From NCBI GenBank assembly GCA_009840525.1, contig VXNP01000005.1, forward strand, positions 1 to 64,000: a stretch of 64,000 bases of DNA, read 5' to 3'. The notes under the pieces were generated by a model. The model worked only from the letters and a program-made list of their open reading frames with translations, made no database searches and was not told the DNA's origin. How positions within the stretch are numbered: the stretch's first letter is position 1; every line of letters begins with the position of its first letter. The DNA is from Gammaproteobacteria bacterium (GTDB taxonomy: Bacteria; Gemmatimonadota; Gemmatimonadetes; Longimicrobiales; Gaopeijiaceae). Of this stretch, positions 36,557 to 38,578 are shown piece by piece. Position numbers and translations under genes: made by a program.

Positions 36557-37216
36557 TCAGCCGATCTCTGCCAGCGCCGCCATCACGTCCTCGTTGCTGG
36601 GACGGATGCGGTAGTCGACCTCGATGAACTTCCAGCGCACGACGCCCTCCATGTCGATGACGTAGACGGCGGGGTGCGGGACCGGGCGCCGGCTGTCGGC
36701 GTTGAACAGGCCGTAGCGGTCGATCACGGCGTGGTCCGGATCGGCGAGGATGTGGTAGTCGAGGGTGCGGCCCTGTTCGGCGGCCACCCGGTCGATCATC
36801 ATCTGCTGTTCCGGGCGTTCATCCACGGAAATGGCGAGGATCTCCGCGTCCGCTTCCTGGTCGGCGTCCAGCAGTTCACTCAGCTCCCCGAGCTGACCGG
36901 CGCACCACGGTCACCAGTGGCCGCGGTAGAAGGCGAGGATGACGTTCTGCCGTCCACGGAAGTCCGAGAGGGTGATCACGTCGCCCGAGTAGGCGAGGAG
37001 CGAGAAGTCGGGGGCGGCATCGCCGACCGCCACTCGGCCGGTGTCCTGGCCGGGCAGGTCGCGGCTATCGGCGGGGCCCAGGTCGGCCGTTTGGCCGGCG
37101 GTTTCGGGGGCGCTCTCAGGCGAAGTCGGCGCGGCGCCCTGGCGGCCGGCCAGCAGGTAGTAGCCGCCCAGGAGCACCACGGCTGTTGCGATCGCGATTC
37201 CGGTGCGTCGCGTCAT
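36557..37216 (-). CDS. AhpC/TSA-type redoxin, candidate selenoprotein with in-frame TGA (UxxC)
   Basis: A membrane-anchored or exported redoxin of 219 aa if TGA is read. From ATG 37216 (GGAGG six bp upstream) it has one N-terminal helix, a Pro/Ala linker, then the redoxin opening GDAAPDFSLLAYSGD and VILAFYRGHW. The next codon is TGA (36911-36913), followed in the same frame by PWCAGQLGELSELL and a complete thioredoxin-fold remainder to a normal stop at 36557. Relatives have Cys at this position (GHWCPxC), so TGA replaces the first, catalytic Cys of a CxxC, giving UxxC. A hairpin suited to a bacterial SECIS begins 14 nt after TGA. Sec insertion is inference; a Cys-to-stop mutation is the alternative. 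It follows the MBL-fold hydrolase gene by about 90 bp. Confidence 0.75.
36880..36896 (-). promoter_or_regulatory. bSECIS-like hairpin downstream of the in-frame TGA
   Basis: On the minus-strand RNA, UCAGCUC (36896-36890), loop GGG, and GAGCUGA (36886-36880) form a perfect 7-bp stem. Two more pairs are possible beyond one mismatch. The stem begins 14 nt and the G-containing apical loop about 21 nt after the UGA, inside the range expected for SelB-binding bacterial SECIS elements. Confidence 0.6.
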
Positions 37217-37304
37217 CATCTTCCTCCGGGGGATGGGTTTCGGCGCGCGGCCCAGGCGGGTGACGTGGCGTCGCCCAGGCCTGACGTTACGTGAGGGTTG
37301 AGCC

Positions 37305-38210
37305 TCAACTGCCCGCGAGACTGACGTAGACGCCGCGCACGAAGCGCTCGGGATTCTCGCCCCAGGTGGCGTCCAGATCGGAGGTGGGGGCCGCGGCCAC
37401 CACTTCGTCCTCTGTCATCCCGTCGGCGATCATGCCGCTCACCCGCTCGCGCACCGTCGACAGCATGTCGCGATAGGCTTGCAGCGAACTCCGGTCGGTG
37501 ATCTCGCCGTGTCCGGGGATGATGGTCGTCTCGCCCGTCGTGTGCCCGAGCACGTAGTCGGCGATGGCGATTACCCCGTCGACGTTTCCGCCGCTGTCCA
37601 CATCGATGAACGGATAGCGCCAGTTGAAGAAGGTGTCCCCCATGTGCACGGCGTCGGCGCCCGAGAAGAACACGAGGGCGTCGCCGTCGGTATGCGCGTT
37701 GGACATGTGATTGACGCGGATGTCCTCGCCGTTCCAGTGGAAGGTGACCCGGTCGTTGAAGGTCACCACCGGCAGCCCCTCCGGCGCGACCTGCTGGGAG
37801 CGCCCGACCAGGTCGGCGAACTCGGCGGGGTTGAGGCGGCGGTACACGTTCTCGTGCGCGACGATCAGGGCGCCCTCGCGGCCCAGGTTCTCGTTGCCGC
37901 CGGTGTGATCGCCGTGCCAGTGCGTGTTCAGCACCCAGCGCACGGGCTGGTCGGTGACCTCCGCCACAGCGGCGAGGATCTTCTCGGTGAGCGGGGCGAA
38001 CTGGTCGTCGACCAGGAACGCCCCGTCCTCGCCCACCGACAGACCGATGTTGCCGCCCGCACCGAAGAGAACGTAGAGCCCCTCGGCGACCTGTTCGGTG
38101 CGAATCTCGATCGGGGAGAAATCCTGCTGGGCTGCGGCCTGCGGCGGGGCAAGCGCCAGCGCGGCGACCACGACCGGCATCGCGCGCGGCAAGCGCGCCC
38201 CGGCCCTCAT
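37305..38210 (-). CDS. Metallo-beta-lactamase-fold hydrolase, exported
   Basis: A 301-aa protein with a signal peptide ending AAAQQD and an MBL-fold domain. The metal-binding motif is THWHGDHTGG, with further ligands in HMGDTFF and IIPGHGEI. The region resembles zinc-dependent periplasmic hydrolases rather than clinical beta-lactamases, and the C-terminal helix (RDMLSTVRERVSGMIADG) is family-typical. Its ATG 38210 overlaps the stop of a small membrane protein gene (ATGA), implying coupling; no separate Shine-Dalgarno is seen. An earlier long open frame to 38537 is not credible. It precedes the redoxin gene on the same strand. Confidence 0.85.
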   Translation of the reverse strand: MRAGARLPRAMPVVVAALALAPPQAAAQQDFSPIEIRTEQVAEGLYVLFGAGGNIGLSVGEDGAFLVDDQFAPLTEKILAAVAEVTDQPVRWVLNTHWHGDHTGGNENLGREGALIVAHENVYRRLNPAEFADLVGRSQQVAPEGLPVVTFNDRVTFHWNGEDIRVNHMSNAHTDGDALVFFSGADAVHMGDTFFNWRYPFIDVDSGGNVDGVIAIADYVLGHTTGETTIIPGHGEITDRSSLQAYRDMLSTVRERVSGMIADGMTEDEVVAAAPTSDLDATWGENPERFVRGVYVSLAGS

Positions 38211-38377
38211 TGGCAGACTTTCCGTCCGGTGAGGAAGACCACCGCGGCACCCACCAGAGCGACCCCCACCGACGCCGCGTTGGAACTGACGACGAACCAG
38301 ATCACCCCGTAGGCCATCACGAAGGTGGCGACCAGCAGGACGTAGAAAACGAGGGGATTGTGACGGGCAGCGGCCAT
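38207..38377 (-). CDS. Small two-helix membrane protein
   Basis: A 56-aa protein with two hydrophobic helices (PLVFYVLLVATFVMAYGVIW and VGVALVGAAVVFL) and a short basic end. It is translationally coupled to the MBL-fold hydrolase gene by a 4-bp ATGA overlap, and GAGAGATC lies upstream of ATG 38377. I do not recognise a named family. It may anchor or assist the hydrolase or be a simple membrane component; that is inference. Confidence 0.6.
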   Translation of the reverse strand: MAAARHNPLVFYVLLVATFVMAYGVIWFVVSSNAASVGVALVGAAVVFLTGRKVCQ

Positions 38378-38578
38378 CGATTGATCTCTCGGCTGGGAGT
38401 GCGCGGACAGCACCCCTCCGGACGCACCGGACGGGGTTTCCAAGGTCGAATCTGCCCAGCCCCGAATGGTGTGTCAACGATGGCGGAGACGCCCTCGGGA
38501 GCCCGGACGGTTGTCCGAGCCGGGAACTCATCCGCATTCTCCTTCTGCAGGGTGGGCAGCACGAACAGCGGGACTCGC

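Follow-up and report, generated by a model that had tools for sequence, protein, structure and literature searches.

A TGA-containing redoxin gene from Gemmatimonadota as a very probable Prx-like UxxC selenoprotein gene

The question raised by this locus is whether a TGA that lies within a redoxin gene ends the protein or is decoded as selenocysteine (Sec). The window, by which is meant the whole stretch of 64,000 nucleotides that was analysed, corresponds to contig C58 in an assembly of 3.99 Mb (155 contigs, 98% complete). In the initial annotation it was proposed that the UGA is read as Sec, a proposal that is supported here, as the contrary signs that were looked for, and which are taken up below, did not appear. 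On the sequence evidence the gene is very probably (at about 0.96) a real selenoprotein gene in which codon 102, a UGA, specifies Sec. The sequence bears on the frame, the machinery, the conservation, the constraint at the RNA level and the exchange between Sec and Cys; from these we infer the incorporation of Sec at residue 102, as we do the topology, substrate and reductant of the product.

The reading frame and its conservation

Direct reading of the minus strand returns exactly the coordinates, frame and TGA position that had first been annotated (Table 1). The gene starts at ATG 37216, with an alternative ATG at 37219, and finishes with a TGA stop at 36559-36557. Reading through the internal TGA does join the two redoxin halves, giving one frame of 219 residues that runs ...VILAFYRGHW-U-PWCAGQLGELSELL.... 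In the product a hydrophobic helix at the N-terminus is followed by a linker and then by the AhpC/TSA domain, where PF00578 (AhpC-TSA) matches residues 64-195 (6e-29; 100.9 bits against a gathering cut-off of 26) and PF08534 (Redoxin) likewise matches, at 3.4e-20. The N-termini of the relatives are signal-peptide-like and end in AxAQ-like sites, which together with the modelled helix points to residues 4-24 as a predicted signal anchor, with the redoxin domain outside the cytoplasm.

Table 1. Positions of the redoxin gene, its parts and its upstream neighbour in the window.
Feature	Position	Strand	Details and basis
Redoxin gene, very probably of a selenoprotein	37216-36557	minus	219 aa with Sec102; frame and PF00578
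Shine-Dalgarno GGAGG, upstream of ATG 37216	37223-37227	minus	direct reading
Hydrophobic N-terminal helix, residues 4-24	37145-37207	minus	AlphaFold2 helix, of low confidence there
In-frame TGA, very probably Sec102, first position of U-P-W-C	36913-36911	minus	direct reading and family conservation
Cys105 codon TGC, second redox residue of UxxC	36904-36902	minus	alignment
Putative bSECIS hairpin TCAGCTC-GGG-GAGCTGA	36896-36880	minus	7 bp, 3-nt GGG loop
Exported MBL-fold hydrolase gene, upstream of the redoxin gene	37305-38537	minus	PF00753, E=1.4e-12

The relatives of the gene span 43-95% identity, and the comparison of homologues at residue 102 that had been suggested at the outset returns TGA or TGC exclusively, with TGA in 84 distinct family sequences (the window gene counted) and TGC in three. 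Gemmatimonadota are the source of the TGA-bearing sequences, along with records that bear the labels Acidobacteriota and Deltaproteobacteria. A scan of the contig collection gave 27 clear orthologues at 47-95% identity, mostly from Gemmatimonadota together with one Blastocatellia and three 'Deltaproteobacteria' MAGs, and all 27 carry the TGA. Among 395 sampled Gemmatimonadota genomes 82 have the TGA form and three (G278, G039 and G074) have a full, stop-free orthologue, which reads TGC (Cys) within the motif FYRG[SFY]WCPYC. All three have the genus code g59, and they group as a single clade (support 99).

Could the TGA nevertheless be a true stop, leaving either a pseudogene or a truncated product of 101 residues? 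The codon is a normal terminator in the window genome and the redoxin gene itself ends in one. However, TGA is fixed in the 84 distinct sequences with full-length frames downstream of it, every orthologue that was read out in full keeping such a frame, and the catalytic Cys105 comes after it. Over the 90 codons past the TGA the dN/dS of the window gene against six close relatives (L023, L025, L027-L030) is 0 to 0.14, and the sequence in this part is under purifying selection. The gene, which is free of other inactivating changes, is thus not decayed, in agreement with the impression given in the initial annotation, and termination at codon 102 is very improbable.

A number of the family members deserve mention on their own account. 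The paralogue L047 (VXOC01000117.1; also G239:C308) reads UPFS, having kept the Sec codon and lost the second Cys (UxxS), in a genome that additionally holds a UPYC form (L036); UxxC is otherwise conserved in the family. Three MAG records titled Gammaproteobacteria (L026, L027 and L028) contain genes 94-95% identical to the window gene, and these titles are probably mistaken. G309, a genome from a different genus (g2), has its own copy and, at G309:C12:52929-53585 (L057), a second copy that is 95% identical to that of the window genus and is probably contamination or a recent transfer. Relatives were not found in the viral collection, and a search of plasmids gave distant redoxins only, at best 37% identical.

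Selenocysteine machinery and the hairpin behind the TGA

The search for Sec machinery that had been proposed finds selA (520.5 bits), selD (308.5 bits) and a tRNA-Sec with anticodon UCA (tca; 68.3 bits) in the window genome, together with selB as two pieces at contig ends. The N-terminal part of selB exits the end of C54 (L010), a frame for the SelB C-terminal wing domain enters from the start of C96 (L164), and both of these ends meet a G/C homopolymer; most simply, the pieces would belong to a single selB that the assembly has split. Gene callers would, with selB broken in this way, give a partial SelB for this genome. Within the 64-kb window itself an Rfam scan at gathering thresholds and ARAGORN gave no matches.

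The presence of the machinery follows the form of the gene. Matches to selA are found in 282 of the 395 Gemmatimonadota genomes and in 81 of the 82 with the TGA form, the exception (G334, 90% complete) having a tRNA-Sec. In the three Cys-form genomes a selA match was not found and the best tRNA-Sec-like matches are either below threshold or tRNA-Ser; the borderline matches in G039 and G278 were rejected as tRNA-Ser(tga). Fisher tests by selA give p = 4e-5 for TGA against Cys genomes and p = 1e-12 for TGA against all other genomes, values that are merely indicative as the genomes are related.

The second element is the RNA that follows the codon. The perfect 7-bp stem with a GGG loop that had been noticed 14 nt downstream is exact: it begins exactly 14 nt past the TGA, with 21 nt from the UGA to the loop, which occupies nucleotides 22-24. 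The folding energy is -8.6 kcal/mol for the hairpin alone and -16.0 when the 42 nt that follow the UGA are folded, and a check of the hairpin against the bSECIS constraints printed in PMC13188914 finds agreement (a 3-nt loop that opens with GG, a stem of 7 bp, a spacing of 21 nt and an energy of -8.6 kcal/mol). Taken by itself, the window sequence is not exceptional, since about 4% of its synonymous recodings also form a 7-bp stem and 12% have an MFE as stable or more so; the stem of this single sequence is weak evidence and becomes decisive across the family. The five inner pairs, between model positions 16-20 and 26-30, are kept in 99-100% of 68 distinct 48-nt sequences, in all of which the first loop base is G. 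Moreover, the four conserved stem columns rank 1, 2, 3 and 5 for synonymous constraint among 44 conserved codon columns, their codons being Leu CTG (83/84), Leu CTC (82/84), Glu GAG (77/77) and Gln CAG (84/84), while Leu and Gly codons elsewhere in the same genes vary freely. This ranking argues that the hairpin RNA itself is under selection. In 36 of 84 sequences the codon after the stem columns is AGA, which is rare in the family as a whole (58 AGA among about 1,170 Arg codons) and is plausibly favoured there as its A pairs with the U at the stem's base. The outermost pair switches between U-A and G-C, but just one or two phylogenetically independent pairs of this kind were found, so the case for the hairpin rests on synonymous constraint and covariation is not the main evidence. 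In the Cys forms (n=3) the hairpin has decayed, the stem having one to several mismatches.

In the mechanism that these elements suggest, the tRNA-Sec(UCA) and SelB would decode the UGA at codon 102 under the direction of the hairpin with its loop at 22-24 nt beyond the codon. The alternative that UGA is reassigned or unspecifically suppressed, as Trp, Gly or Cys and without selenium, draws on the three orthologues that carry Cys here, as therefore UGA read as Cys would yield a working protein. Yet UGA serves as a terminator in this genome, the redoxin gene included, a dedicated tRNA-Sec(UCA) with selA, selB and selD is present and co-occurs with the TGA form, and plain suppression would not need a hairpin under synonymous constraint, such that this alternative is scarcely credible. 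An error for TGC or TGT, for which one might point to the draft state of the assembly, is untenable and has a negligible likelihood, because the same TGA recurs, at 94-95% identity, in assemblies made independently by different projects, and also in the single-contig genomes G017, G058 and G070. The dN/dS values, the full-length frames and the independent assemblies together exclude decay and base-call error, and the pseudogene, error and reassignment readings are all effectively excluded.

Active site, family placement and likely activity

The active-site motif is FYRGHW-U-PWC, that is U102-P-W-C105, with Cys105 kept in 13 of 14 aligned family sequences. An AlphaFold2 model from a 14-sequence alignment (mean pLDDT 82.6) has a peroxiredoxin/thioredoxin fold behind helix 4-24, and the solved folds nearest to it are the Mycobacterium tuberculosis AhpE and the PrxQ type (TMt 0.82 for the AhpE type). 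The sequence relatives in the PDB include AhpE, PrxQ/BCP peroxiredoxins and thiol-disulfide oxidoreductases of the ResA type. AhpE (1xxu), the closest solved fold, is a Cys enzyme with TxxC, and Bacillus ResA (1st9) is a Cys enzyme with CxxC. Profile alignment to AhpE pairs Sec102 with the conserved Thr of PxxxTxxC and Cys105 with its peroxidatic Cys; the PxxxTxxC/PxxxTxxU site is absent, its Pro being replaced by Arg98 and its Thr by Sec102. It had been stated that the TGA sits where relatives have their catalytic Cys. On this alignment that is true of the nucleophilic Cys in a CxxC motif of the Trx type and not of the classical peroxidatic Cys, which is the residue that aligns with Cys105.

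How does the protein relate to selenoproteins that are already described? Prx-like selenoproteins of PF00578 with a UxxC motif have been reported from the Sargasso Sea and GOS data (PMC1088965, PMC2398784) and are tabulated in a 2026 review (PMC13188914). By its domain and motif, compared with these descriptions, the redoxin is placed as a new Prx-like UxxC (PF00578) selenoprotein and not as a new kind. With Prx-like 1 / thiol:disulfide oxidoreductase selenoprotein (PMC2398784, PMC13188914) it has in common PF00578, the UxxC Sec and the existence of Cys homologues. Against the published description nothing categorical sets the two apart; the present orthogroup is predicted to be exported or anchored, and it is Sec-dominant in Gemmatimonadota. 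The Redoxin family selenoprotein (PF08534; PMC13188914, PMC9312934), a UxxC redoxin with which PF08534 is also shared, may be this family by a different name. The orthogroup is without an NCBIfam equivalog of its own, the best matches lying far below cut-off.

Two further families can be set aside. PrxU (PF00578, TxxU; NF040737; 47.0 bits) shares superfamily and fold, but has Sec at the peroxidatic Cys of TxxC, whereas in the window redoxin Sec lies three residues earlier and TxxC is missing; a canonical peroxiredoxin or a PrxU was rejected on the lack of the PxxxTxxC/U site. The motif of SelL is UxxU. SelL (NF040769) has the redoxin fold and a Sec-containing Trx-type motif in common with the window redoxin, but was rejected on a score of 38.6 bits, far below the cut-off of 120, and a window motif of UPWC. 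Separately, another AhpC/TSA gene of the window genome, at G000:C131:22899-23294 (-) (loci L106/L163), is also interrupted by a TGA in frame, and its motif FFFRVRTRG-U-TVQMTAYRD (TxxU) makes it a separate selenoprotein candidate of the PrxU type. A member of a distant redoxin subfamily (L095, G103:C10:362731-363180; 35% identity) reads FYRGDW-U-PYC and is likely a further selenoprotein of the phylum.

With regard to activity, a thiol-disulfide oxidoreductase or a peroxidase with a Trx motif seems likeliest from the sequence. An extracytoplasmic thiol-disulfide oxidoreductase is favoured because the classical peroxiredoxin site is lost and the Trx-type UxxC is kept. The product would then be a membrane-anchored, extracytoplasmic redoxin of the AhpC/TSA fold with a Trx-type U-P-W-C active site, in which the Sec102 selenolate would attack a disulfide or peroxide and Cys105 would resolve the intermediate as a Se-S bond, prior to re-reduction by a DsbD/CcdA-type thiol relay in the membrane. 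The window genome encodes two DsbD_TM proteins (DsbD/CcdA-type membrane reductases).

The main rival concerns the activity and not the decoding, namely that the selenoprotein is a true peroxidase, a Sec-peroxiredoxin. This is a credible but less favoured possibility, to which the best structural and sequence neighbours (AhpE and the PrxQ/BCP peroxiredoxins) and the top Pfam family, AhpC-TSA, lend weight. Set against these are the Arg98 and Sec102 substitutions within PxxxTxxC alongside a Trx-type UxxC, the occurrence of ResA among the PDB relatives, the top NCBIfam match to thiol-disulfide oxidoreductase ResA (with a score well below cut-off) and the Cys orthologue of G278, which by eye adjoins DsbD-like and thioredoxin-like genes. 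It is also conceivable, though rather unlikely, that Sec makes the exported Trx-motif redoxin catalytically distinct, with a function so tied to selenium that Cys is seen only where Sec machinery was not found. Such an enzyme might, for instance, be a peroxidase/reductase with Sec at the peroxiredoxin Thr position and Cys105 as a second catalytic centre, and its selenium-tied function would go with the retention of Sec by nearly the whole orthogroup.

Significance and gene neighbourhood

Automatic annotation could truncate the redoxin at residue 101 or take its gene for a pseudogene, a risk that applies equally to the orthologue in 81 other sampled Gemmatimonadota genomes. The use of Sec is, on the selA counts, widespread in this phylum, which receives little attention in the selenoprotein papers searched; in neither of the two reviews of prokaryotic selenoproteins that were searched does the main text mention Gemmatimonadota, and so the breadth of Sec use there may be little documented. 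The genus without detectable Sec machinery, where TGC stands for TGA and the hairpin has decayed, represents a clean natural experiment, and recognition between SelB and SECIS could well be tested on the 15-nt hairpin sequence, which is nearly invariant.

Finally, the MBL-fold gene that had been reported upstream is real. It is present in seven near relatives and absent from the more distant loci examined, and is probably not a functional partner of the redoxin. A conserved operon partner was rejected, as the MBL and M16 neighbours are kept within the genus only and the neighbours at distant loci vary, and hence no partner is claimed. In two distantly related genomes (L087, L085) a DUF547-like frame was seen by eye near the redoxin gene.
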